Source: Phorcus lineatus
Taxonomy: Eukaryota; Mollusca; Gastropoda; Trochida; Trochidae
Direction: 5' to 3'
Assembly: GCA_921293015.1 (NCBI GenBank)
Contig: OV121087.1
Span: 8,010,501 to 8,074,500 of the forward strand
DNA length: 64,000 nt
Shown here piece by piece: positions 435 to 60,198 of this stretch (the first letter of the stretch is position 1; each line of letters starts with the position of its first letter). The position numbers and the translations under genes were made by a program. Below the pieces are notes generated by a model. That model was not told where the DNA came from, searched no databases, and saw nothing but the letters and a program-made list of their open reading frames with translations.

Positions 435-3400
435 GTAACTTAAAAATGTTATTCTGTGGTTTTTGATTACCAGTACAATTATGTAAAGTTACCTTTTGCT
501 GTCTGGCTAATTTAATTAAATGTTAATTATAATTCATTCAATTGAGGTCATTAGTTAGAGCATTACTTTAAAATCAAGGTGATATTATGATATAAATAGT
601 GATAATAAGGATACCCATATTATGCTGGTGTAAGACACACATAACTCCTGTTTTCCTTCTTGACTCATTTTAAAGAGGTTATGGGAGAAATGGATTATCA
701 CTACGGTTAAAGAATGTAAAGCATTATTTACAATGATTTGTAAATAATTTGATAAGAAACCATGACTAGCAAGATTTTTGTTGCTTCAGACCCCGAGGAA
801 GAAGAAGACACGCCACAGCAGCAACCCGCCAGTAGAGGGTCACGTGGGCTGGGTCATGGACTCCAAGGAGCACAAGGCGCGCTCCCGCAACAACTCGACC
901 TCCATGAGCATGAGGTCAGTGGTGCTGAAGTTGTTAGGGGCAGAAAAAGACTTCATTTTGTGTGAACATGTGATTAATTGACTAACACTTTAACTGATTT
1001 GCCACATTGGTTATAACCATCTGGAGATCATTCACACACTGGTGGAACTTTCTTGAACTTTAATACTTTGCATTATGTTTTTTACATATTGTTTCATCTC
1101 GTCTTCCTAGGGTCAAGTTCTTTTCTTCTCTATTATCAGATTATTACATTATTTTTTTCTTAAGAATTTTACAACTTAATGTTTATATCGTTCTAGATTC
1201 AAAGATTTCTGTAAGTGAATGTGACTTTCATGCCAATACAACAAAATGGTAGAGAGTGATTGTCGTAACTAGAAATAAGATAATCCTGTGACAAGTCCTG
1301 TTTTTTCAAAGCAAAATAATTGGAGAGTAATCTAAGTAAAATATTTGAGAATAATCGCTGTATCTACTGAAAAGATTATTCCATGAGAAAATAACTTCAA
1401 AAGTCTTGTTTCTGTCCGCAGCCCGTCTGACAGCCAGCTGTCTGCAAGTTACGGCAGCACCCCACAAGCATTCCCACAGTTCGAGCACCCGTCCCATCAA
1501 CTCCTGAAGGAGAACGGCTTTGTCTGGACTGTCTACCACAAGTACCATGCCAAGTGTCTCAAAGGTTGGAACTTATCCTTGTTAGGAGCTTGTTAAGTCG
1601 CACTCAATGTAAAAGGTACTCTTGGGAAAAAAAATGGGGTTTTGCAGGTGTTTCCTTCGCAACATCCTTTGAAATATTTGAAATATGTATTATAAAACTT
1701 ATATTGGTTTTTGTTAAGGCCTTTTCCTTGTTTTAAGGTTATATAATTTATTTTTGTATTCTGAAATTCATTATCAGCTTTTTCTTTCTGCGCAAGAAGA
1801 AAATCTCAGAGTACATGTTTAAGTTATGCAGTTATGTTTCTTTGGTCATGGTATAAATATTTTCTACGTTATTAAAGCGAAGACTGAAACGCTTTGAATG
1901 TTTAGACGTTTTCTGTATATCATTCAACCTTCTCCTCTGACACAAATGTGTGTAGAGACTGGACAGTCAGAGGAGAGGAAAGTAATGCATGTTTTTATAA
2001 ACTTTCCTAATATCTCCTTGTCTACATATAGAATGGAAGAGATTGGGTATTAGAAAATATAAGGAGGAACATAAAAAGGTTCATTAAATCTTTATTTATT
2101 TAAATGTGTTTCCTCTGTAGAACGAAAACGGCTGGGTATCGGACAGTCCCAGGAGATGAACACCCTTTTCCGATTCTGGTCCTTCTTCCTGCGCCAACAC
2201 TACAACAAGAAGATGTACCAGGAGTTCCGCAACCTCGCCGTCGAGGACGCCCGGGCAGGTTACAGGTGAGCAAGTTGTGCAGAAGATATATTCTTCCATT
2301 GACCCGCAAGGCCCCTTCAATGAAAGCAGTTCTCTCGACCTTGAACAGCTCATCAGTGTGAATCGGCAATCTAGAACTTAACGCTGCTCTTTTCAGTTCT
2401 TGCTGTTAGTCTGTGTTAACCAGCAATTCTGGTGCAAAAGCCTGCCAAATAGCTGCACACAAACTTCGGAGCAGTTCACCACTTGTGAAACAAACTTCAA
2501 AACTCTAATAAAAACTCCTGTTCCTCCCCCCCCCCCCCCCCCTTTCAGAGTTTGTTAATGTAATGTTAAAATTGGTTGTTAACCCTCAAGTTGCTGAATA
2601 TTATTTTGACCAGTTTTGCCCCAGTGGCTGAATTTTCAAGCACTCGCCTCGCTACCGTTAATGCGTAATTAGCACCAGTGGCTGAATTTTCCAGTGCCGC
2701 GAGTCGCGACCGTTTTGCCAATATATGGTTTGTTTACGTGGCGAAATACGGATGTAAATATCGTTGTCTACAAAACTAGTCGGCGAATACCGTATTAAAA
2801 ATGGATGATACTTACCTGGCACTTTGAATGAAATTTATATCACCCCTAGAACGGTTTCTATAACCGAAGTAAACTTGTTTTTAATTCGAGCGCCGTTACT
2901 CTAAAATTGTGAGAGCGCATGCGCGAAATCAAAACGAAACTAAAGGCGAAAAGTTCCTCTTGACATCGATATAAAAATTATTACAAAAATATGTCTAGAA
3001 CGAATTTTACGATTATTCAAAAATTGTCTATATTTCAAACTCTATTAAATCATTTAATCACTGAGTGCACATAGACAAATTATATACGGAAATGAAGCTA
3101 ATTTATTGCTCTATATTTTACGATAAATTTCATTACGATACGCCATCCTAAACGAAAGATATAAATAACGAAAGCAGGGTAGTGATAAACCCCGATAACG
3201 TTCTGACCCCCACAGTAATATTACTAAGCTAGTAGCCCCGGGCAAACGCACGCGCTCAGCGCGTGCAGGCGGGGTATCCCCGCTGAAAAATACACTCAAA
3301 TTGTCTTTATTTCCAATTTTATAATTCAAGTTATTCGCTTTGTATACATGCAAATTATATATGGAATTGAAGGCAATTTGTTCTTCTTTACGGATAAATA

Positions 3401-6300
3401 AATCATAATAATCTTTTGCTGTGTATTTAGAAGTTATTACCAACGAAACGTGGGTAAAGCTAGTGACTAAAGTCTTTGATAATCGCCTTACCGCGACATT
3501 TGTCGCATAATTTCCACACGTTTTATTTTGATGCAAATATGGGCAAATTACACATGAAAATGAAGGTATTTATTTCCTCTTTACGTTGATATGAAAATGA
3601 TAAATATGTACCGCTTGGTTTGGAATATATATAGTTTGCAAAGATTGTCCCCTCAGGTATTTGAGAACAGATTTTGATAATTGCGACATCACTTACCGCT
3701 CCTTTATTGTTTCATTGTAATTTGCAAATTTTATATAGAATTGAAGACGATCCTTTTCTCTTTATTGTGATATAAAAATGTTGATAATGCACTCTGCCGT
3801 TAAATAGATAGGAAGTGTAAAAAGCAGTTGAAAAAATCGCTTCTCGGTTACCAAGATATGAATAGAGAAATTGCCTGTTTGCGCGATGCTCGTCGGGTCT
3901 TTACTGATTTTCGTTTACATACAAATTTTATGTGGAAATATAGATCATCCTTTTCTCTATATTTTGATATATGAAATTTCAAAATGTCCCGAGAAGTTTA
4001 TGTGATATAAAGTGCGAGAAAATGGTAAATACACAGAGAATAAAGAAAAGTCGCAATTTTGCGGCACTTGCTGTATCTTTATTTTATATACTGCATATAA
4101 CTTTTTTACATCAAATCGAAGACAATTATTTCTTCTTTATCATGAGGTAATCAATTTCAAAATACGCCTAGCTGTTGAGAAGATATGAACGAAATAAAGG
4201 CACATGTCAAAATCGCCGTTCAGTTTACATGATTTGAATAGAGAAATTAGCTTTTTGTGCGGCGCTTGCTGTGTCTTTATTTATTTTTGCGCATGTACAA
4301 ATTTTACATGGAATGAAAGACAATCTTTCTCTCTATCTTATAATATAAAAATTGTCAAAATAAGTTGAGCACATCATGTGAAAATTGGTGTGACAAAATG
4401 GTGTAAAACTAAAAATATGTAAAAATCACCTCATTTACGGCACATGCTGTATATTCAGTTCAGGTAGCGCATATTCGTAATTTATATCGAATTAAAGACA
4501 ATTTTCTCCTCTTTCAAATGATCCCACCTGTATTGAAATCTGCCCAAGGGTTTAGATCATACGGCGTGCGAAAGCAAGGTGTGCTTTTGTTGTGAGTGCG
4601 CACGCCTGAGCAAACAATAACGTGCGCAGCTCGATAAGCTCGTGCGCGAGGGGAGCAATAAGCCCCAGGGCTATAGCAAGCCCGGCGGGTAGTGGGGAAA
4701 AATTGAGCGTTTGTAATGCATATTTTCGGTACGATAAATATGACCAATATCTATAAAACTTTCGGAAAATATGCCCCCATTCTTTAGAACAACAACGGGG
4801 GAAAAATCGGCAGCTTAGCGAAAGCCGGAACGAAAATACACGCGTTCAACCGACACGACTGCCCTGCAATTTTTTTCCGGGATCCGCTACATGGTACAAT
4901 TGCGTTAATTAGTAAATGCGTCAGATTATAAGTCCGGCTTCCGGGGTTCGCTAAGGCTAACTGCGGCGTAGTTTAATTTCATCCCGGACCATTCCGTAAA
5001 CCGCGGCTTGAGGGTTAAAGTATAATTTAGTTAAGGTTAAGACAGATGCTTCATTGTTTGATTAAAAACTGCAAGATAATCTTACACATGTATGTATTAT
5101 TTATCTTATAGCTGCTACATTTCTGCCATCTTGTTTAAGGTACGGGTTGGAGTGTCTCTTCCGATTCTTCAGCTACGGTTTAGAGCGAAGATTCCGCAGT
5201 GAAATATTCAGGGACTTCCAGGAAGAAACAATCAAGGACTATGTGAATGGTAAGAGATGAGACGTTAAACACTGTGATTGAGTTGAAGCCCCGCACCAGC
5301 AGTCTACACAAAGTGTCTTATTTGTAGAAACTGTTTTATGCTACTTGTCCTCTTCTTAACCTTTTTACTTTATGGATTCAAAATATTCGAGTAACATAAT
5401 GTTAGCACATGGCCTTTCCAGGAATATTTCCCTTGTCAATTGCTATTTACTGAAAAAAAAAGACCACTCTTATTTAGTACAAAGTTTGGTACGGCAGTAA
5501 GGACAATATTGTTTATTTGTTTCTGATGCCCAGTTAAGCTTTTCTAATGTTATCTCATGTTATCAGGGAAACGTATTTCCAGTATTCTGTAGTCCTTCAT
5601 TCTTTAAAGAAAACTTCCTACTAAATGTTGCTCGAGTGCATGGGGAATACTATGATTTTAGAATTGGATGCTTACTTTACAGGGCAGTGTTTCCAGGCAA
5701 GTCTGTTTGACATTTATATGTACCCCATTTTACCATAATCATTTGGGGTACAAGAAACAATAAATTTGTGAACAGTAGTTAGTAAATGGTGATTACACTT
5801 GATAGGTCAGCTCTACGGGTTGGAAAAATTCTGGGCATTCCTGAAGTATTCACGGCGGGCAGTGGATATTGACCCTATGCTAAAGGAGAAACTCTCACAC
5901 TTCAAGCGGCTCGAGGACTTCAGAGTTGATGTGAGTGTTTGTACTTCTCTTGTTTTTTAACCAAATATTGATGAGATATCTGTATAAATCTGTTCGTTTG
6001 GTTGCGTTATATCTCATTTTAATTCTCATCGATAATATTTGAAATACTTGCATTTTATTTGCGGAAATCAAAATAAATGGTTAACTGAATATTTTGCTAT
6101 GGCTTATATCCCTTCAAATCAAACATTTTATATTTCAACACATTTTCTCCCTTAAGTTCGAGGACCAACCAGGTGGCCCATCTCCGGATGTGAAACTATT
6201 GACTCCCCAGGACAGTAGCCAATCGAAGGCAGCCTCTCAGAAGACTGGACCAGCCAGCCAATCAAAACCTTCGACAGAAAAACCTGAGAAGAGCTCATAG
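247..6300 (+). CDS. LARP1: La-related protein 1, C-terminal half (partial, 7 exons)
   Basis: Exons read at 247-434, 790-914, 1422-1564, 2121-2265, 5140-5249, 5806-5930 and 6157-6300 (TAG stop); all junctions are AG/GT and the phases join into 325 residues. LARP1 binds the m7G cap and first nucleotides of TOP mRNAs and controls ribosomal-protein mRNA translation and stability downstream of mTORC1, in the cytoplasm. The joined exons match the family's DM15 region closely: [47 protein letters not shown], then [16 protein letters not shown] and [16 protein letters not shown]. The aromatic/basic residues typical of the cap pocket are present. The La module and RRM-like domain lie upstream of this window. 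After DM15 the tail is short (about 48 residues) and Ser/Lys/Gln-rich, shorter than in vertebrates. The intron between exons 4 and 5 holds a 2.4-kb TTAA element. LARP1 versus a LARP1B-type paralogue cannot be separated from this half, but LARP1 is much the likeliest name. Confidence 0.95.
790..914 (+). CDS. LARP1: LARP1 exon: basic linker
   Basis: Starts ACC after ttgcttcag and ends AG before gtcagt. It encodes [19 protein letters not shown] then GWVMDSKEH, a block conserved in LARP1, followed by a Ser/Asn stretch. Confidence 0.9.
1422..1564 (+). CDS. LARP1: LARP1 exon: start of DM15
   Basis: Follows tctgtccgcag and ends G before gttgga. It encodes [17 protein letters not shown] and [11 protein letters not shown], the first DM15 helical repeat. 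Confidence 0.93.
2121..2265 (+). CDS. LARP1: LARP1 exon: DM15 repeat A/B
   Basis: Follows cctctgtag and ends AG before gtgagc. It encodes [20 protein letters not shown] and [16 protein letters not shown], nearly identical to the human DM15 core that contacts the cap. Confidence 0.95.
2526..2542. repeat. Poly-C run, 17 bases
   Basis: An uninterrupted C17 sits 36 bp upstream of the left TTAA of the 2.4-kb element in the LARP1 intron. No function is inferred. Confidence 0.95.
2583..5014 (+). mobile_element. piggyBac-like non-autonomous element, copy 1
   Basis: The element is flanked by TTAA at 2579-2582 and 5015-5018. The left end begins CCCTCAAGTTGCTG and the right end, on the other strand, CCCTCAAGCCGCGG, giving an 8-bp perfect terminal inverted repeat. 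TTAA target duplication plus a CCC-initial repeat is the piggyBac hallmark. The motif CCAGTGGCTGAATTTTC is repeated near the left end (2621, 2672). The interior holds about eight degenerate units of ~190 bp, each marked by an AAATT(T/A)TAT.TGGAA(T)TGAAG-like core at about 3073, 3350, 3541, 3724, 3921, 4098, 4289 and 4474, plus GC-rich hairpin blocks near 3230-3290 and 4590-4700. There is no transposase ORF. It lies in the LARP1 intron 2266-5139 and matches 31158-33562 in reverse. Confidence 0.8.
5140..5249 (+). CDS. LARP1: LARP1 exon: DM15 repeat B/C
   Basis: Follows ttgtttaag and ends AAT G before gtaaga. It encodes [18 protein letters not shown] and [12 protein letters not shown], including the Tyr/Arg residues of the cap pocket. 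Confidence 0.95.
5806..5930 (+). CDS. LARP1: LARP1 exon: DM15 repeat C
   Basis: Follows cttgatag and ends GAT before gtgagt. It encodes [18 protein letters not shown] and [11 protein letters not shown], the end of DM15. Confidence 0.95.
6157..6300 (+). CDS. LARP1: LARP1 terminal exon
   Basis: Follows tcccttaag and runs to TAG at 6298-6300. It encodes a low-complexity Ser/Gln/Lys/Pro tail of 47 residues with no domain. Confidence 0.88.
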   Translation, partial: FEDQPGGPSPDVKLLTPQDSSQSKAASQKTGPASQSKPSTEKPEKSS

Positions 6301-15290: not shown

Positions 15291-18200
15291 CTGAAAAAGA
15301 AAGCAAAAATGGTTTCTTGGTCTGATAAAAAATACCTCTTTCTAATCACGTCTAGATTTGGGATGAACAATAAGAAATTTCACTCTCCCTTCTGAAGCTG
15401 CTTTGTTATATTTTATAAAATAATTGTGATGTTAGGATTTCTCTTTTCAGAGACTATTTAAGGGTTACACACGCTCAACACTGAGCATCCAGTTTGATAC
15501 AAATGATATTCTGGCTAAAATTAGACGTGTAAACAACAAAGGTTATTCCCTGTGTAAATACTCCTGAGAGTCAACTAAGCATTTGTCGGGTCATATCAAA
15601 GAAAACAGTTAGATAACTTGATTTTTAATTTACAGAACTGTGTTATTTGACTACACTAACATTAAATATTTTTTTTATTGATAGAGTGAGTGACAACAAC
15701 TGTAAAGTACAATCAAGAAGTGTTCAATTGATGTTGACCAGTTTTTGACCACTCAGAACACTTGCTAGAGAAAGGTTATATTTTACCATAACTTGAACAT
15801 CAGCTACTCAATATTAAATTCATCATGAATCAGCATTCTGCTGAAGGTGTTATTAGCTCATTTACATCTATTTAAACACAAACATTCGGTCATTCCCCAC
15901 TAACCCTTGCGTCAGAAGTTGCATCCATAAGAAAAACAAAGTTTCCAGAGAGCAACTTCTTAATTGTGAAAATACATAATGTTTTGAAGTATATACTTCT
16001 TCATAAGGTAAAATTTAGGGAATAGAAAATGGGATATAATTCTGATCAACCTGTCCTTATAAGGTGATCTTATTACTATATATATTTCTTGTGACAATAC
16101 ATGATGTTTCAGAGTATATGCTTATTCCTTCATCAAGTGAAATGCAGGAGAGAACAAAATTGAATTTATACTGATAAAGCTGTCCTTATATGGTAATTTT
16201 ATTACTGTCTATCTTAATCGTGAAAATACAAGATTTTCAGAGCACTTTTACTACTTCATCAGATTGTTCAGAGCACTTTTACTACTTCATCAGATTGTTC
16301 AGAGCACTTTTACTACTTCATCAGATTGTTCAGAGCACTTTTACTACTTCATCAGGTAAAGTATAGGGAGTAACAAAATGGGAAATTCACTTATCAAGCT
16401 GCCGATATAATTTGATATTTTCCCCTCCTTACCCTATCTACAGGTGTCTGTGTGAGTTTGCGGAGCTGCACTGCCTGCTTGTACTGCTTGCGGTCTCTAC
16501 TCGTAACGTCCCGGTATCCACTATCCTTCTGAGAAGGTTCTCGTGGCGTGTAGGGATCTGCAGTTACCTCCCCTTCTTCCTTCCACTCGTACTCATGCCG
16601 TGACATGCGAGATGGATTTCGTGTGGGGACGGATGGGGAGAGTCGGCCATCATCAAGGTCAGGTGGACTTATCTGCTGAAAGGAGGATTGGTTTCAACAG
16701 TTAACACTATAATCTCTGATCACTAATACAAATGGTAGGGGTGTAAATTAGAGAAAAAGGAAAACTAGGGAAACATTACTGAAACTGGTTTTTATCAAGC
16801 CTGTCTCAACTAGGGTTAAAAAATTGATAATGTACACGGTAAAGGGTTAATTTCATCACCTTTGTTAGTACTTGTGTGACTTTTAACTTTCAACATTACA
16901 TATAAAGCAAAATTATGACTTGTATGGTTTGTTGCATTTTCAAATGGATCTTTGAACTAACTTGAAGCTGAGACTGGACAACTGAAAGTATTCTGACAAA
17001 TGATTTTGATGGATTAAAAAAGAGAGAGGCCGATTACTGCTTTCTTAATTGCGTCTAGATATTTACCTGAAGAAACTTTTGTTTCTTCTTCTTTTTAGCA
17101 AGACCGTACATGGATGTACCATTGTATCTTTCTGTAGCACCTGGAGTTTCCATGTTGCCTCGCCTGTAACACAACACAACACGATATGGGACTCTGAGCA
17201 AGACAGAAGACTATTCCAGTTGTTGACCCACAAGATCTCTCTGGCAGGCTTTAGAATAACAATATTTCATCAAATCAAATCAAGGTTAACACAACCCAGG
17301 CCTGAAAAGGAGGGTACTTAGAGAATTGTAACACAAACCTGAACCTGAAACCTGAACCAGTATCAATTTGAACCTAGTTGGAAAGAGGGTGCCAAAGCAA
17401 ATGAAACCCAAAGAGAAATATTGCAATTCAAGTCAGACTTGCAGTTATAAAATTCTCCTGCTGAGTTAAGAAGTAGCAATGCAAATATGTTTTTATTTAG
17501 TGACTTGTTTCAGCTACATAAATAACACCATGGTGTATTACTGTTATTTTCTACTGCTCTGGGATGTTTATTCTGAAGACCAGTTCTGATACTAATAATT
17601 GGGGACGTAACTACTGACTATACGGTGGTTAATTGTGACTCACCATGGAGTATACTGATTGTGAGCGGGTGACTCTGACCTCAAGTGGTAGGGTTGGTGA
17701 CCTGCATACTTTGCATATGACCTTGACTGTAGGCTCACATGCCGATTGTCCCGGTTGAGGTCACGTGAATACATGAAATCTGGAGGAAGAAATGCCAGAG
17801 TGAAGAAAAGAATGAGTGAAAAATACGGTCCTAGGCTAGAGGAATGTGAGGTACTGACAATTAAAATTAAAACTAATTTACGGCATGGAAATATTATTCA
17901 GTTTTTTATGATATATCTATTTGACTCAAACCAATTTAATAATTCTTATTCTTTATGTTGAACAAACCAATTCTGATTTTTCTAGTGTAATAAAATGGCT
18001 AACTGAATGTACCATGAATCCATCCCTTACTTTAGACATCAACTATCAAAGAACATTTACCTAAAAGCAAGTCTGTATAAGTAACAAAAAAACTAAAATA
18101 AAGTTTGGAACACAAAACTTGTCAATTTTAAAACACAAGCATCAACTCAAATCAATATAAGTTTGATTAATGTTTAAAAATGAAATTTAAATGCTAGAAG

Positions 18201-30200: not shown

Positions 30201-33200
30201 CTTCCAGTCTAATCTGCTCACACCTGTGTGCACACCTACAATAGACAGGTATATTGAACTCCTTGTACAATCACTAGTCCAGGTATGGGACAGTTCTCAA
30301 TGAAAGACTACACTAGCCGGGAGTAGACAATCTGCTCAACCTTTCCTGCTCTGTTGTTCTCTGTATACAGCTAGTGTTGAAGACATGTACAAACTTCAAC
30401 ACGGTAATTCAAGCTATGTGAGTTGCTATTCCACTCTCATGAAAAAATTTAGAGGATTTGATGATCTTCTGGGTTGGAAATACAGGCCTCAACGTCTTCC
30501 TTCTAATTTGGTTTGGAAGTTTGGAAAAAATGACGAGTAAATGAGGTTTATTCCCATCACAGAGAAAATGGTTGTTAGTATATTTGCAATTGCTATTAGC
30601 ATTCAAATCTGAATTTCTTATTTCTTTGTTATTATTGATTTAAAGAGCCTGGCTCTTGGCATCTGGTCACCCCATTTAGTTTCGGAGAATTACATAAAAA
30701 AGGATATGTACTTTTAATAATTTTACAACTTTATAAAGATAATCTATATGTATGGATAGAATGTTCACACCTTTACAAATGATTTTTGATAAGACAAATC
30801 AACAATCCTTCTTAATGCCATGACAAGGCTTTTCACACTCGTAGCACATTTAAAAGCTTCCCTTCTAGTTATTCTTGTTTTATTTTACCAAGAATGTTCT
30901 CCCATTAATCTAGTTGTCAATTCTAAATCATACAAAATTTTATCCTCAGTCATATGTTTCAACTGGGTTATGTTATTACTGTATGCTGATAACATACTGG
31001 TATAAACTGGAATGTCCCCTTGAAATTTTGTTTTGACAAAAAATACCCCTTTCCTCTTAAAAAGTACAATGAAAAGTTGATAAGAGAGTCATGAATAAAT
31101 TAGACCATTCAGTCACTTATAGTGACATAAATAAACCAGGTAATATCCAATCTTTAACCCTTAAGATGCGGGTCCCGGAATATTCCGGGATGAAATTAGC
31201 TTTGCCCGCAAGTCCCCTTAGCGGGATGCGAGTAGCATACTATTTTTCTCACGCTAACTAATTATGACCGCGGGTCTCGGTAGCGGAGCCCGGAAATTTA
31301 TTGCCTAGCAGTAGTCTCAGTTCAACGCTTGTATTTTCGTTCCGGCTCTTGCTAAGCAACCGTGTTTTGTTTCGTTGGTGTTCTAAATAATGCGCGAACA
31401 TGCTCCGAAAGTTATGAGAGTATTGATAATGTTTATCGTACCGAAAATAAGCATTAAAATCACTCAATTTTCCCCCACTCCCCGCCGCACGTGCTAATAG
31501 CCTGTGGGCACTTTCTCCCCGCTCGCACAAGCTTACTGTCCCGCGCGTGCTATCGTTTGCTTACAAGCCTGCACTCACACCAAACGTACAACCTTATATC
31601 GCACGCCCTATGCTCTGAACATTTGGGCGGATTTCAATACCGGTTGGATCATTTGAAAGAGCAGAAAATTGTCTTCAATTCAATATAAAATACATAAGTA
31701 CACTACCTGAATTGAAGATACAGCATGTGCCGCAAAAAAGGTGATTTTTACATATTTTTAGTTTTACACCATTTTGTCACACCAATTTTTAACGTATTTT
31801 GACAATTTATATATCATAAGACAGAGAGAAAGATTGTCTTTCTTTCCATGTAAAATGTGTACATGCGCAAAAATAAATAAAGACACAGCAAGCGCCGCAC
31901 AAAAAGCTAATTTCTCGATTCACATCATGTAAACTGAATGGCGATTTTGACATGTGCCTTTCTTTCGCTCATATCTTCTCAACAGCTAGGCGTATTTTGA
32001 AATTGATTACCTCGTGATAAAGAAGGAATAATTGTCTTCGATTTGATATAAAAAAATCATATACACCATATAGAATAAAGATACAGCAAGTTCCGCAAAA
32101 TTGTGACTTTTGTTTATTCTTTATGTTTTTACCATTTTCTCGCACTTTATATCACATAAACTTCTCAGTAAATTTTGCAATTTCATATATCAAAATATAG
32201 AGAAAAGGATGATCTTCATTGCAATATAAAATTGGTATGTACAAGAAAATCAGAAAGGACCCGACGCGCATCGCACAAACAGGCAATTTCTCTATTCATA
32301 TTTTGTTGACCGAGAAGCGATTTATTTTCAACTGCTTTTTACACTTCCTATTCATTTAACGGCAGAGCGCATTATCAACATTTTTATATCACAATAAAGA
32401 GGAAAGGATCATCTTCAATTCTATATAAAATTTGCAAATTACAATTAGACAATAAAGGAGCGGTTAGTGATGTCGCAATTATCAAAATCTGTTCTAAAAT
32501 ACCCGAGGGTACCATCTTTGCAAACTTTATATATTCCAAACCAAGTGGTACATATTTATTATTTTCATATCATCGTAAAGCAGAAATAAATACCTTCATT
32601 TTCATGTGTAAGTTGCCTATATTTGAATCAAAATAAAACGTGTGGAAACGATGCGACATATGTTGCGGTAAGGCGATTATCAAAGACTTTATTAATAGCT
32701 ATACCCACGTTTCGTTGGTAATAACTTCTAATTACAGTGCAAAAGATTGTTATGATTTATTTCTTCGTAAAGAAGAATAAATTGCCTTCAATTCCATATA
32801 TAATTTGCATGTATACAAAGGAAATAAAGACAATTTATATTGTGTGTGAGTGTATGTTTCAACGGGGATACCCCGCCTGCACGCGCTGAGCGCGTGCGTT
32901 TGCCCGGGGCTATTAGCTTAGTAATATTACTGTGGGGGTCAGAACGTTATCGGGATGTATCACTACCCTGTTTTTGTAATTTATATCTTTCGTTTAGGAT
33001 GGCGTATCGTAATAAAATTTATCGTGAAATATAGAGCAAGAAATTAGCTTCAATTCCGTATATAATTTGCATGTGTGCACTCAGTGATTAAATGATTTTA
33101 TAATGTTTGAAATAAAGACAATTTTTTAAATTTTGTCAAATTCGTTCTAGACATATTATAAAAATAATTTTTATATCGATGTGAGGAGGAACTATTCATC

Positions 33201-36200
33201 TTTAGTTTCGTTTTGATTTCGCGCATGCGCTCTTGAAATTTATTGAGTTATGGCGCCCGAATTGAAAACATGTTTACTTCAGTTGTAGAAACCGTTCCAG
33301 GGGTGATAGAAATTTCATTCAAAGTGTCAAGTAAGTATCATCCATTTGTAACACGGGATTCGCCGACTAGCGTTGTATAAAACGACGATAATGTCCGCAT
33401 TTCGCTATGTAAACAGGCCATATGTTGTTAAAACGGTCGCATCTGGCGGTGCTGGAAAATTCGGCCACAGGGGCTAATTGCGCTATAACGGTAGCGAGGC
33501 GAGTGCTGGAAAATTCAGCCACGGGGCAAAACTGGTCAAAATAATATTCAGCAACGTAAGGGTTAATATTGAGATAAAACCAAACAGGTTGAAAAGTATA
33601 CTAAAGCCTTGTTTCCAAATGAAATAACGGATAACAAACAGGATTTCTTATCTTGAGAAGCAATACATCTAACCTCTGAAGCTGATAAAAGGGGAGGGGG
33701 GAATTACTTTCAAAAATTACAAATACCATTTCAATTACTATTTTATCACTATCTGTATGATCCAGTTTATAAAATGGCAAATCCTAAAAGTTATTACGAT
33801 AAGAACAAAACATTAAGTAAATCATTAAAGCCTGTCCTACTCACCCGTTCCACATATTCAAAGACGAGGTAGAGTTTGCCCTTGCGTCGAAAGGCTTCCC
33901 GTAATTCCACAATGTTTTCTTGTTTCAGTGCGCGGAGCATTTTCAGCTCCCGCAGTGTTGTGCGTTTCACATCTTCGTTTTCTGGAATGGAAAAAGTTTA
34001 TATGAAATTCTGGAAAATTTACCTAAAATTGAAAAAGTAACAAGAATGAGATATACATTTTAAAAAGTCATGCATTAAATTTCGGTCAGTAAAAAAACAA
34101 CTCCTACACTTTAAAATTTGTTCAAATTGTTGCATTTATCCATACTTATTGGGATTCTTGATTGTTCAACATTCATATTCTAATTCTAAACTAGATGAAT
34201 GTTTGCAGGACACTGCAAAAGCAGAGCGGAGGGGTTCCGCCTTCCCCTGTTCTGCCTTCTTTGCAGCCACCACAAAATGGGCATCTCGTGACCTTGACCT
34301 TTGATTTGAGGTCATACAATCTACGATCACTTTTCATTGATCATAACAATCATAATGATTAAAAGTATTTTAAAAAGGTTTTTTTCAAAAACCAAATATA
34401 GTGACCACGCTGTGACCTTGACCTTGGACCGATTATAGAAATAATCTTTTGCATTTTGGTACTTCTCCATTGACAATATTTACCAAATAAAAGTCTAATA
34501 GTACCCGAATTTTTAAAATTGATTTCTTAACCCATGACCTTGTTCTTTTTACTTTCAATGTGAGTATGTCTTAACATGTTCCCCCCTTTTGGATATTAAT
34601 AAAAAATTATTTTTATGAGTTTGCAAACTTAGCTAAATAAAATGTGCAGTGGTGGATATGACGGTGGAAACTGGACAAAAACTGATAGTAGTGCTGACTT
34701 AGGCAGGGCTGTTTATTACGGCACTGTTTTAGTCAGAACGACATCTATTTCGCTTAAAGTTGCCTACCTTGCAATATTGATTGACCTTAAAAATGCCTTA
34801 GGCTGCGTTTCCACCAAGTTTCACGTGACACGTCACGTGTCGCGTGACAAGAAATAGAAACATATGATTTTGCTAGGAACCGTTTCCATCAATGTCACTT
34901 TTCACGTATCACGTTTCACGCGTGAAATGACACGTTTTCAAAGAATGAACATGTTCATTCTTTTTACCCGTGTCATGTCACGTTTCTGTCCGATCTGGGG
35001 TTTCCCCTGGGTTTTCCACAGTTTACTCCATAACACCTCACCCTTTATTCCACAGGACGAATGACGAATGACATATGACATGTTCGATGTGAAATCCAGT
35101 GGAAACCCTATATGTCACGTATCACGTGTCATGCGTGACACATGACACGTGATACGTGACACGTGAAACTTGGTGGAAACGCAGCCTAAGAGTCAAATTC
35201 ATGATAATAACTATTACTAGTCTCAAATAGTTAAATATTTTAACTGTCAATGGATTACATGTAAACTGTTGTATTCTTCATTCTAGGTTACAGTTGGCAT
35301 GATGAAATGATTTTCTTGAAAGAAAAAACTTTAAAATCGAGCAACCACAATAGAGTAAAAAACCCTTACAAGAAGGTATTATTCAATAAGTTATTGATTT
35401 TGTTTGAATAAGATTCGCTCCAGTGTGTTCCAGGTGCATAACAATCATATGCAGTGAGCTGGAATATCAGTACTACTTTCCTAAACACAATCTAACAAAG
35501 ATTTAATGTACTGGGTTACCTATCTCTCCCACTGAACACAGAGCTAATAATGACCTAACAACAGTACATCAAAAGTGTCTATTCCATTTCAGGGATTATT
35601 ATTCTCCAGGTATGAACATGTACTGTAACTATTTTTCCATGTTCACAAAGCATCCAATCATCACTGACCGTGGCTACTCTAGCTGATCCCTTTACGAGGC
35701 TTTGTCATGACAGAGTATCACGTTACCACCAATTATTGATACAAATATAAAGCTTGTCACAAAACACCACCAGCCTTATTGATTTCTCTTCAATTCCGCT
35801 GGCCATGGCCTCTGGTCAAAAAGTTACAAAAGGCAATCGGAACTAACACTGTGAAAAATTGGTTCACATCATCTCAGCTTTAGCAGCAAAATTGTGATTG
35901 CTGACAGAAGTGATGAAATGGGGAATCAATGAATCGTGACTTGTCAACCATCATGCCGAGTGGTCGATCGAGTGCCATGACAGAAACCATCCCATTCGTC
36001 ACAGGATTACTCTCTATTCAATTTTGAAAAACTTGTTTTATTTAAGCAGAAAATTTGTCAAATCTTATATCAAATAATAATGTTGCAATAACTTATTGTT
36101 TGTTACTGATTGTTACGTGTCGTGGGTTGTGATTGGTTAAAGTATCATGTCATTGGTTAATGTATAAAGTTTTGGGTTGTGATTGGTTTTGTATATTATG

Positions 36201-39200
36201 CCTTTTGCTGCAATTGGTTAATATTTAACAGCTTTGGCTGGGATTGTTTAATGCATAACGTCTTTGGTTGTCATTGGTTGATGCACAACATTTGAAGGGT
36301 TGTATCGTTTTTGGTTGCGATTTGTTAATGTTTAAGGTCTAAAGTTGTGATTAGTCAATGTTTAATACCTTTGGTTGTGATTGGTTATTATTACTTACGT
36401 GGCACTTCCTAAAGGGGTTTCATAACAATATGCTATGAGACATATGTGTTTTGACACCTTCAAGTGATTTGATTGGCTAACAATGAACTTGGACATGGAC
36501 TTTCATATTTATTCATAAAACAAACATCTTTTCATTCACAGATTTCGAACAACACCCCATTAATTGTTCAAATTAACTTTATTTTATAAATCTTACTTAC
36601 TGCTAGGGGTGACTACTGACTTAATTTTACTATTGTGATAGCGATAGTCTATTGCAAACTACTATTGCAATTGCAATAGACTATTGTGACCCACTATTGC
36701 AATTGCTATTGCGATAGTTTTGGACCTAAATAAGAACGTATTTCAACTGTGGTTCCAACAGATTTTATAAGGAACATCTGAATGATTAGACTGTTTTCAG
36801 TCATTTAACACCATTGCAACTATTTAGTACTATTGCAAAGATCACTATTGCGATGCACCGATAGTTCAATATATTGTTGTTTATCATGACTGGTCAAAAA
36901 AGTTTCATCATTCAACACATCACAAATAGACATGTAATTGACTTTAAAAGTATGAATATTTGATGTCGTAATATCATTTACTCTTAGGCTGCGATGCAGT
37001 TGAATATTTGTCCATCATTCTGTTTCTTAATAGGCATGACTAAAAGTTGTTTCAAGAGACAATGAATCGTAAAATAGTAATGAATAGGATACATTACTTG
37101 TTCCCCTTTCATATCAAATTATGTCCCTTGTGAAATAAATTTTTTTGTCCCCCAACAAGGCTCAGGATAAAAATTATTTCTGTCAGGACATAAACTTGAC
37201 AATAAAGGGGAAGTTTCTTAGATCCTACAAATGAATACGGTCTCGAGTCGTGATTGGTGAATGTTTAAGGTCTTGGGTCTGGTTAATGTATGATGCCTTG
37301 GGATGTGACATTGCAAAATATCTTTGGTTGTGATTGGGTAATGTTGTACGTGTTTGTTTGTGATTGGTTATTTCTAAGGTCTAACATTACTTATTTGTTG
37401 TATTGTTTTGTGATTATGAACAACACCATTGAATTGGTGATCATTACAGGATTAATTTAATTTGAACTATATGGTTCCCAAAACAAAAATGTTTTGGAAT
37501 TGTTTTCCTTATCAAATAAGAAATACAGATGATATCCTATCCACTGCAGACACTACACAAATTGGAACACAACACTGTGATTGGTCAGGGTCTAGTGGTT
37601 TCATGTTATATAACAATTTAATCACCATAAAAATGCGATGTTATTGTAACAGGCAGTTATAAATCATCATTATTCTGCTTGGTTTTATCTGTCCATTTCA
37701 ATGGGTGTGGTTTGGTGCGAGTTCTCAACTCGGAACAATCTTGTGTTTGTTTACATGGCAACAGGTAATTACTGACTGCAACTTGGACTAATCTGGGATC
37801 AATACCTTTCATATCGTGCATGAAAAAATGTAAATCACATCCATCAAAAATTTAAGTCCTTGTAGACACAATGCAAGTGTATAATTAGAGGCTTAAGGCA
37901 AACAGAACTCAAATTGCATGTCCTGCTTGTGTCACATGTTGCCACAAGGTACGTGATTAGGAGCTTTTTGGTCGTGGTGTATTGTTTACAAGTTGAAACA
38001 ATGCGAAGTATAACATTGATAGGCATTGAAATATATGAGTTCTTATATTTGTACAAAGCAAGTCCATAAACCTGAAATCCCCTAACCTATGACATTTGAG
38101 AAAAAAAACTAAAAAACAGATGAAGTCAGCAAGTCAATATATGCATTACCATTAATCTTTCTGAAAATATCTCCAATATGCTCAATATGTTTACAAAATT
38201 TTGTTTACGTTACTTTCTACCAGTTTGTAGTCATAGCCCAAAAGTATTACCTAAAATTTAAATTGATTAAATATTCAACAAAGTTTAACAAACGACAAAA
38301 GACATAAATTCCTTATCAGAAGACACTGAATCACATGTCTCATAAACATATTAAATTTCATTTGATATCTCCAACCATTTTGAAGTTAATTCGGGGAAAA
38401 AATGTCATGGACAAATATACATTACGAAAAACTGAAAGGCACTCCTAAATTCCCTTTTTCATTGGTAAGCAGATTATAATTGTCACCTTGAGTTTCAGAA
38501 CAAGAAAAAGGTTCCTGATATCAATGACACATAAATGAATGTTAATTCTTTATATTTCATCATTTGTGCTACAAAGAATAGAAAGTTTGACAAAGAATAT
38601 TTGGTAAAGAAAGTAATCATGGCAACCTTACAAGTATGATAGCTCTTAACTACATTGTAAGTGCTCATATCAAATTCACTCAACTAAAAGATCATAGGTC
38701 ACTAAGCTCTGACAACTGTCCCACCAGAGTCTCTTGACAAGTGCAGTTTGAGAGTCAAGTTTAAGGGACTGTGTATGCATGCATACTTCACTTTGTGCTA
38801 TTCTAACATCAACATTGCACTGCACATGAGTGACATGTTACAAAATTACAACTGATTACTTAAGATATCTACTTATTGGTACGTTTGGGCTGTCTGTGTA
38901 TACATGTAACAACAGATTACGTGCCAAGGGTTGTCATCATTTCAATCTTTAAATGCAACTCACCTTCGCTGTCTTTGAATTTCTTAATAGCCACCATTTC
39001 CCCATTTTCCTGAAAACATTAAACACAATAAGTAAATTCTAAGTTCAGCTTAAAAAAGAAAATGAGACTTTAAAAAAAAAAATCTTTCTAAAAAATAAAT
39101 ACAAATTACACTCAAATATGACAAAGAAGTAATCTTTTTTCAGAACACTTCATATTAATGATAATTTTTTCCTTTGAAATTCAATATCAAACTTCTTAGC

Positions 39201-53526: not shown

Positions 53527-54244
53527 TTATGTGCCAGTATTGCCATCTGCATCTTTCGTCTGACTGCCTTTGTTGAGTTTCTCTGACTCCACCTCCACGT
53601 GCTGCTCCTGCCACGTGACACTCTTGCAGTATCCAGTGACCCGGATGACCATCGTGCGTCCGCCATCTTCAAATGTCACCATTTCGCAATCTTCGGGCAG
53701 ACGACCACGGAAAGGCGCCTCTAGATTCATGACGGCTCCCGTTGAGATGATTTTGTCATGTTTGTCTTTAATCACAAATGGCAACCGCCTTCTATTGACT
53801 TCCTTTTGTTTGTCGTAACTCATTTTGTTAACAACGACAAAATCAGAGGTTGTCTTCTTCTCCAAGACTTTTACCCGCGCTTTTGTCTTCTCACCCATAT
53901 CCACGGAAATTTCAGAGTTTACGTTCCATGACATTTTCGACTCGAAGCTTTTGCTGTTAGTATTTTCGGTTGCCACTTCTCCGCTAACCCCAGCACTGAG
54001 CTTCAACACGTCGGGAATCCCGATCTCGATGCTACTCTCGGCGCCATAGGTGTAGCTCTCTGTGAACTCAAAGGTTGCAGACGATACGGTTTCCCTCTCG
54101 GCGGTGAAGCTGAAGTTCTGGGGCCGGCCCGATTTGTTGACGTAGTCGGCGTAGTGCATGACAACTGGCTCTTCCGGTTCCGTATCGACTTCCCAGGATC
54201 GCGGCTTCCACTCAGTTTCGGCGGTCTTCTCCAGGTATTCCCAT
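53527..54244 (-). CDS. Pore-forming-protein gene, second coding exon
   Basis: Acceptor ttgctgcag precedes A TGG GAA TAC. 718 nt, open to the stop. Carries the whole beta-rich region. Its GC content is visibly above that of the neighbouring DNA, as expected for a conserved exon. Confidence 0.72.
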
Positions 54245-55002
54245 CTGCAGCAAGAGCAGAAACACATTAGTAAAGAAGCGCACATAAATTCACACATCAC
54301 ACTATAAATCATAACCTCTGCAGAGACCAAAAAAACCCAAGTTCATATTTAGTGGTTATCAGAGGTAAAAGGCTCAGCATGTCAACTCTCATCCCAATGC
54401 TCAACGGTGAAACAATAATGTTGTACACCAATATCTAAAAGAGAGATACCAACTAAGAAAACGTTCATCAAATATCGCAACTTATTGTAGTAGTAACAAG
54501 CAACAGGTAATTTCAAAGACAAAAAATCAAGAAACTTGGATTATCAAATTGTTACTAAAACTGATCAACTTGACAACCGATGATGATATAAATAGTTTTC
54601 TGTAGCGTTTCATTTAGAATTATATTGACATAATAATATGCAGCGTACCCAATAACACCTGCAAAATTTCAAATGTATCCGAATGTGTCAGAGCTGGCGT
54701 TGACGCGTGCAGAGTCCTTTAGCTCAATCGACAAAGCGTCTGACCTTAAGTTTTGGTCAAGGTAGGGTTTGAATCTCGCTGGTGAACCTATTTCTTTTCC
54801 ACTACAAAGATTAACACAGGTAGTAAACAAAACAAAATTGTCACCTGATCTCGACGGTACAGTTTTTCCTGCGAGTGAGAAGCGCCTTGAGCTGACCGAC
54901 ATCTTCAGGGTAGAGCTTGTTCCAGATGTAATCCTCGAACACTGCGTTCAGATCCAGTCGGGTCAGGTCGATCTTCCGGGTCTTGCTGCCACACACTCCC
55001 AT
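53527..55002 (-). CDS. Aerolysin / ETX-MTX2-like pore-forming protein (2 coding exons)
   Basis: Exons 55002-54845 and 54244-53527 join in phase to 291 residues with a TGA stop. Residues 1-52 are a compact N-terminal part; from about residue 70 there is the long alternating Ser/Thr/aliphatic pattern of an aerolysin-type beta-pore module (FSFTAERETVSSATFEFTES, IPDVLKLSAGVSGEV, SMSW-type turn, TKARVKVLEKK). The C-terminal part is beta-rich with RLPFVIKDKHDKIISTGAVM. Proteins of this fold are water-soluble, oligomerise and insert a beta-barrel; animal members occur in molluscs and others, probably in defence or digestion. The family call rests on pattern, not on a profile match. No signal peptide is seen from the chosen ATG. 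The frame is open back to the acceptor at 55018, so an upstream coding exon is possible. The predicted start MGVCGSK resembles an N-myristoylation signal. Both exons look intact. Confidence 0.62.
54714..54786 (+). other. tRNA-like sequence (decayed tRNA or SINE head)
   Basis: Box A-like TAGCTCAATCGACAAAGCG (54720 on), an anticodon-arm-like TGACC..GGTCA, and box B-like GGTTTGAATC (54767 on) have tRNA spacing. The acceptor stem does not pair well, so a functional tRNA is unlikely. It lies in the intron of the pore-forming-protein gene, on the opposite strand. Confidence 0.5.
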
Positions 55003-59691: not shown

Positions 59692-60198
59692 ATGCCTTTC
59701 ATGCCACCTAATTTAGAAATACTATTTAAGGCTGAGAAAGGATGTAACATATTTAACAACCTTTTACATAGCGATATTTCAAATAAAAAACTACATTATC
59801 AAAGTAAGTGGGAAAAGGAATTGAATACAGATTTTAGTTTGAATCTATGGAAAACATTCAATTTGATACCTATTCGAGCATGTTATAGTGCAAAACATAG
59901 ATGGTTCCAGTATCGAATTCTCCATAGAATCCTCACAACAAATAAAGATTTACATAGATATAACCTCATAGAATCACCACTATGTACATTCTGCAATGTT
60001 GAAGCAGAATCAATTATCCATCTTTTTTATGAATGTAAATTTGTAAAAAGTCTGTGGCAAGATCTACTAAAATGGATCGAAAATGAAACAGACACCCATT
60101 TCAACCTAAAGGCAGAGACAATTCTTCTTGGATTCAGTGAAAGAAGAAATGATGTTCTAAATTTCCTTTTTATCCTAACTAAGGAAACTAAAAGATAA
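59692..60198 (+). mobile_element. 5'-truncated LINE fragment (zf-RVT region)
   Basis: A 168-codon ORF matches the C-terminal end of a non-LTR retrotransposon polyprotein: KWEKELN and RACYSAKHRWFQYRILHRIL, then a zinc-binding CTFC-x8-H-x4-C motif (CTFCNVEAESIIHLFYEC) and SLWQDLLKWIE. The endonuclease and the reverse-transcriptase palm are absent, as after 5' truncation. An L1/Tx1-like clade is suggested by the zf-RVT arrangement but not proven. A stop after ETKR ends the frame. Confidence 0.85.

Follow-up and report, generated by a model that had tools for sequence, protein, structure and literature searches.

A gene-less piggyBac element of Phorcus lineatus looks like two repeat-bearing arms of a larger transposon joined without the gene

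Introduction

How does a transposon without a transposase gene come to be filled with satellite-like repeats, and do these repeats play a part in its history? The question is raised by a window of 64,000 nucleotides from Phorcus lineatus (contig OV121087.1, positions 8,010,501 to 8,074,500), which is the whole stretch of DNA analysed here. An initial annotation, made from the letters of this window, described a TTAA-flanked element packed with a ~190-bp satellite-like array, which a piggyBac-type transposon could seed across the genome. That transposons can carry arrays is well established, as excerpts of three reports illustrate (PMC12628747, PMC7492417, PMC2872659). Is the array foreign cargo, or does it belong to the transposon itself?

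Results

The body of the element spans positions 2583-5014 of the window and is assigned to the minus strand, the transposase orientation of its autonomous relatives. It was correctly delimited in the initial annotation: TTAAs lie at 2579-2582 and 5015-5018, and a perfect 12-nt inverted repeat, TTAACCCTCAAG / CTTGAGGGTTAA, closes the element. Both ends carry the terminal inverted repeat CCCTCAAG, which fits the start CC[C/T]T given for piggyBac terminal inverted repeats in the passages available from PMC2872659. Together with its TTAA, this repeat occupies 2579-2590 on the plus strand, the counterpart of the autonomous right end, and 5007-5018 on the minus strand, the counterpart of the autonomous left end. 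A 26-nt subterminal direct repeat (2615-2694, plus strand) is present in two copies, 2615-2640 and 2669-2694, which are 54 bp apart and 88% alike; a third member of this repeat family, at 65%, is probably due to chance.

The interior contains eight unit cores of 27 nt each (3076-4502, plus strand), starting at about 3076, 3351, 3544, 3725, 3922, 4100, 4298 and 4476 when the core positions of the family consensus are converted to window coordinates. In the consensus, the eight cores lie at 498, 784, 977, 1158, 1355, 1533, 1731 and 1909, with spacings of 286, 193, 181, 197, 178, 198 and 178. The longest gap measures 275 in the window copy rather than 286, because this copy is without 11 bp of the consensus. 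The eight degenerate ~190-bp units described earlier, with cores 178-198 bp apart and this one long gap, are therefore real, and so is their periodicity: self-similarity at lags of 175-205 was found in 151 windows, whereas 200 dinucleotide shuffles gave 0.16 on average and never more than 8. Tandem Repeats Finder returned no row within 2583-5014. Cut as fixed 210-bp pieces, nine units are mutually 38-67% alike, the ninth being weaker and doubtful, and the core is the best-conserved part of the unit (mean column agreement 0.80 vs 0.43-0.73 elsewhere). Visual inspection showed a TTGAGGGT motif in some of the right-arm units, which carries no weight in our argument.

As had been supposed, the interior is not a decayed transposase: tblastn and a frame scan found no transposase remnant in the element (best E 0.30; longest stop-to-stop frame 97 codons). 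The window yielded no Rfam family or RNA gene and no tRNA gene. It holds, by eye, a 267-aa open frame at 53527-54330 (minus strand) for a putative aerolysin-type pore protein and a 168-aa open frame at 59692-60198 (plus strand) that is putatively the end of a LINE-type reverse transcriptase, and short minisatellites at 16231-16355 (31-bp units, 4.1 copies at 98%) and 36148-36382 (~30-bp units at 66-72%).

A search of the same genome (957.8 Mb) for copies of the element gave 3,122 candidates, 40 of which were scored. All but one of these, the window copy among them, are near full length at 96-100% identity; the remaining copy begins at query base 229. TTAAs flank 28 of 30 fetched copies on both sides, and one side is altered in L009 and L019. 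The flanks of the 30 copies showed no mutual similarity at E 1e-5, so that the insertions look independent of each other; no empty-site match spanning the junction was found among the loci of these copies. The copies look like independent TTAA-flanked insertions. They fall into two groups: the distance from a joint consensus, which is biased toward the larger group, is 0.33-0.78% for L001-L019 and 1.55-1.84% for L020-L030. The window copy sits in the first. The gene-less family is young and recently amplified.

The ends of the element, expected to recur in other copies, do so both in this near-full-length family and in hundreds of matches across the genome. With up to 2 mismatches, the right 24-bp end common to gene-less and autonomous elements has 759 genome matches, the left 24-bp end of the gene-less family 286, and a second type of left end 1,209, with 0 matches for the reversed-pattern control in each case. 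On C1, C2, C5, C7 and C9, we looked for partners of 66 left ends (among 100 listed) in a set of 99 right ends (likewise among 100 listed); 58 of these left ends pair with a right end and 8 do not. Among these listed ends, 37 of the 58 paired lengths fall at 2.3-2.5 kb, 10 at 6.5-6.9 kb and 7 between, and 4 are shorter, spanning 955-2,246 bp. Other gene-less derivatives range from 955 to 3,152 bp in paired length. Growth of the array is therefore not visible, since 37 of the 58 paired elements belong to a single size class. At least 6 of the 10 elements of 6.5-6.9 kb contain a transposase match. For the second type of left end, 16 ends were hand-picked among 100 listed; 6 of them pair, and 4 of these pairs are 5,553 bp long with a transposase match.

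Which transposase belongs to these ends? A genome search with PF13843 gave 1,060 candidates, 116 of which were scored. A stop inside the match occurs in 0 of the 116, most of which lie in open frames of 654-665 aa; this is apparently a large and recent expansion. The transposase of the end-sharing relative scores 317.5 and 316.4 bits against PF13843 and matches two solved structures, piggyBat and piggyBac; its closest protein match reaches 74% identity (best 120 of 262), and the named matches among the first 30 listed are from molluscs, at 43-46%. Two of 30 fetched loci, L031 and L032, with frames of 568 and 572 aa and ~30-33% protein identity to the main one, are a different piggyBac family. 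Within 1.5 kb of the transposase, the first 30 loci had neither TTAACCC nor GGGTTAA termini, since their arms extend further than this.

Elements of the 654-665-aa kind are L061, C25:40840506-40846635 and C7:5116132-5122920, the last a 6,789-bp element carrying an intact transposase. L061 as a whole measures 5,431 bp, with a 665-aa frame at 1669-3663 (within a 9-kb stretch), and ends in TTAACCCTTAAG and CTTGAGGGTTAA. It bears units both left and right of the gene, four and six in number (one of them placed by eye), and every match of the gene-less family to it lies on one strand. In a 663-aa copy of 6,130 bp the left units number six (one of these placed by eye), so that unit number differs among copies. 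In this one copy (L063), the right terminal repeat is changed, reading CTTAAGAGTTAA for CTTGAGGGTTAA. The autonomous relative with the same termini that was to be looked for thus exists in the same genome, with an intact transposase. Its piggyBac transposase, together with TTAA insertion and the CC[C/T]T terminal repeat, makes the window element piggyBac-type, as first proposed; the Kolobok superfamily, which also uses TTAA, was rejected since the transposase of the end-sharing relative is of piggyBac type.

The autonomous elements share with the gene-less element the ends and the unit class in both arms. In the transposase orientation, the family consensus aligns with L061 end to end over the first 160 bp, at 77.5% between consensus 150-962 and L061 150-965, and at 72.5% between consensus 1914-2451 and L061 4895-5431; 59 of its 60 terminal bp equal the right end of L061. 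Units M1 and M2 of the gene-less element are 81% and 86% alike to the left-arm units AL1 and AL2, M8 and M9 are 63% and 60% alike to the right-arm units AR5 and AR6, and M5 and M6 are closest to AR1-AR3 (52-57%); no one autonomous unit stands out as the partner of M3, M4 or M7. When the consensus was scored in 47 sliding windows of 150 bp against the autonomous arms, 25 (starts 1-1201) favoured the left arm and 22 (starts 1251-2301) the right, with a narrow margin of 79 vs 77 at start 1201 and with starts 1701 and 1751 staying within the shuffled maximum of 39. The side switches from left arm to right arm once in the 47 windows, inside the array.

In window coordinates, corrected for the 11-bp deletion, these scores place the switch at 3619-3818 (minus strand), a stretch that includes the unit core at 3725. 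The right-arm-like part lies at 2579-3618 and the left-arm-like part at 3819-5018, both on the minus strand, the inner boundary of the latter being placed only to within 3619-3818. Because the side switches once and no transposase remnant was found, the gene-less element looks like the left arm and the right arm joined within the array, minus the gene. The autonomous elements differ from it in their open transposase frame and in their inner arrays: the right-hand half of the gene-less inner array is 65-67% identical to the copies read in alignments of at least 200 bp. No close parent of the inner array is found among those copies, and the direct parent is therefore unseen or extinct.

Less expected is the modular build of these elements. 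Over its outer left 546 bp, the 6,789-bp element on C7 shares 98.5% identity with subfamily A and 98.9% with subfamily B, in comparison with 75.8% for the 665-/663-aa copies that were read and 80.3% for a second element of the window. Bases 749-998 of the 6,789-bp element, compared in phase with the gene-less family, reach 68.5%. The step in identity thus lies in the interval 546-749, which belongs to the first two units, and is based on one 6,789-bp copy with 800 bp read. The second window element, an older relative at 31154-33566 (plus strand, TTAAs included), has the same body with a different left arm. It is 85.5% identical to the gene-less family over 2,459 columns, but only 65-77% in the first 500 columns and then 82-96% per 100-column bin, and at its left end it carries the other type, that of the 665/663-aa autonomous elements.

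Further signals of exchange come from the copies themselves. Subfamilies A and B are separated by 23 fixed differences, 20 of which fall in columns 210-433, near one end (0 of 10,000 permutations were as clustered). At the A/B sites of columns 180-450, the element at 31154-33566 agrees with B at 14 sites and with A at 8, while 1 site matches neither, and from these mixed letters the cluster may reflect local divergence instead of a swapped tract. In a four-gamete test, 239 of 1,711 pairs of informative sites fail, which corresponds to at least nine intervals; 188 of the 239 conflicts pair columns above 1780 with the rest, and the sites richest in conflicts fall in the outer left arm. Some of these conflicts may stem from recurrent mutation; the copies of the young family look recombinant. 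The autonomous copies look mosaic as well, L058 and L061 being 98.0% identical over 350 bp upstream of the gene vs 86.2% over the gene-bearing stretch.

Discussion

Based on the two arms that meet inside the array, we consider it likely that the element is a non-autonomous piggyBac made of the left and right arm of a larger piggyBac whose gene is flanked by ~190-200-bp direct repeats; that it is a deletion derivative of this piggyBac family seems to us nearly certain. On this reading, the starting point was a larger autonomous piggyBac in which such direct repeats flanked the transposase gene, and a deletion reaching from a repeat of the left arm to one of the right arm would have removed the gene, whether by single-strand annealing, by slippage or in the faulty repair of a gap left by excision. 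For the repeats having served as the substrate of this deletion, we see the balance as even. The gene-less element would then have been moved in trans by intact 654-665-aa transposases, and we regard mobilisation by these proteins as very probable. Finally, recombination in the arrays would have swapped its outer left arm with that of the 654-aa type. The mosaic structure of the arms is an observation; the part played by the repeats is our inference. It is a tentative proposal, which we hold at somewhat below an even chance, that the arrays act as recombination handles, with easier gene loss and later exchange of ends with autonomous lineages inside the arrays; the suggestion that arrays may favour arm exchange is put forward equally tentatively.

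Could the transposon instead be a piggyBac MITE that captured a host satellite, spreads it and seeds satellites genome-wide? The ~190-bp units are indeed periodic and satellite-like, and host-repeat capture is described, in the excerpts available, for Pokey (PMC3849761) and for a Xenopus MITE (PMC12628747). The same units, in matching order, flank the gene of intact autonomous elements, and for this reason foreign satellite cargo was rejected as the source of the array in this element. The element size is also nearly constant, and one right-arm unit variant is no commoner than the element ends: its 1,132 genome matches, with up to 3 mismatches allowed, are outnumbered by the 1,209 + 286 left ends. 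Among 100 listed exact places of this variant there is one pair of cores 199 bp apart (G000:C2:27325800-27326028). A genome-wide search with this one variant, with positions listed for exact matches only, gave no sign of free satellite arrays. We regard satellite capture as very improbable. The reading as a separate satellite packed into the transposon is not supported, as the units belong to the autonomous element's own arms, and the repeats look inherited from the parent, not acquired from outside. Equally remote is an array-only element as the ancestor, with the transposase gene inserted later, even if the units to the left and right of the gene all point the same way: piggyBac ends and transposase belong together, and the left and right units are distinct, each matching its own arm.

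A more serious alternative leaves the repeats passive: abortive gap repair of the ordinary kind would have removed the gene, and ordinary gene conversion between copies would have made the arms mosaic. Internal deletion is the usual origin of non-autonomous elements. mPok, too, is termed a deletion derivative in the passages available from PMC3849761, and some of the exchange signals here lie outside the units, namely the A/B differences in columns 210-433 and the top sites of four-gamete conflict in the outer left arm. Against this, the side switch and the identity step at 546-749 both lie within repeats; passive repeats are a real possibility, to which we give roughly a third of our belief. 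The array might also be retained for a putative role in cis, such as binding of the transposase or a host factor, or chromatin spacing. Array-bearing copies predominate in the gene-less size classes (among the matches listed), the core is the best-conserved part of the unit, and mPok offers a contrast in having lost the Pokey repeats (PMC3849761, in excerpt). Units only 38-67% alike speak against such a role, as does the existence of the four paired elements of 955-2,246 bp, which does not imply that these have moved, and we consider it unlikely.

How does the proposed derivation from a repeat-bearing autonomous parent compare with known systems? In the passages available from PMC3849761, Pokey of Daphnia is an autonomous piggyBac of ~5 kb with ~200-bp non-coding repeats in variable number, and its smaller gene-less relatives, mPok, are called deletion derivatives, in both of which it resembles the elements described here. 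The same passages place the Pokey repeats upstream of the gene only and derive them from the rDNA spacer, whereas here repeats lie on both sides, and they describe mPok as ~750 bp long and without Pokey repeats, whereas the gene-less element here keeps its repeats. By analogy, and as far as these passages go, Pokey is the nearest known system.

Xstir of Xenopus was reportedly described by Hikosaka and Kawahara in 2004. As related in excerpts of PMC2872659 and PMC12628747, it is a MITE with tandem repeats from its own internal sequence, as here, but its tandem arrays also occur outside the MITE, and none were seen here with the one variant searched. The CMITEs of Acropora corals are likewise TTAA MITEs linked to piggyBac-like transposons, but in the passages available they are ~100 bp long and form arrays of whole elements, whereas the units here are internal (PMC2872659). 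The Cg_HINE Helentrons of the Pacific oyster are similar in being non-autonomous and dispersed, with satellite-like repeats at their centre and flanking modules that are reused; they belong, according to the excerpts of PMC7492417, to the Helentron superfamily, in contrast to the cut-and-paste piggyBac with TTAA sites found here. In the titles, abstract openings and selected passages of the literature covered, no piggyBac appeared whose gene lies between two arrays and which has an array-keeping gene-less derivative.

The element therefore offers an example of a satellite-like array in a transposon that is apparently inherited from an autonomous parent and is not cargo. It bears on how elements without a transposase stay mobile while transposases and ends evolve. 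Autonomous copies with open frames are numerous in this one genome, which also contains a young gene-less family and an older sister bearing the other end, and the exchange of ends is therefore testable there. If the arrays do act as recombination handles, an old gene-less body could follow whichever transposase lineage is currently active.
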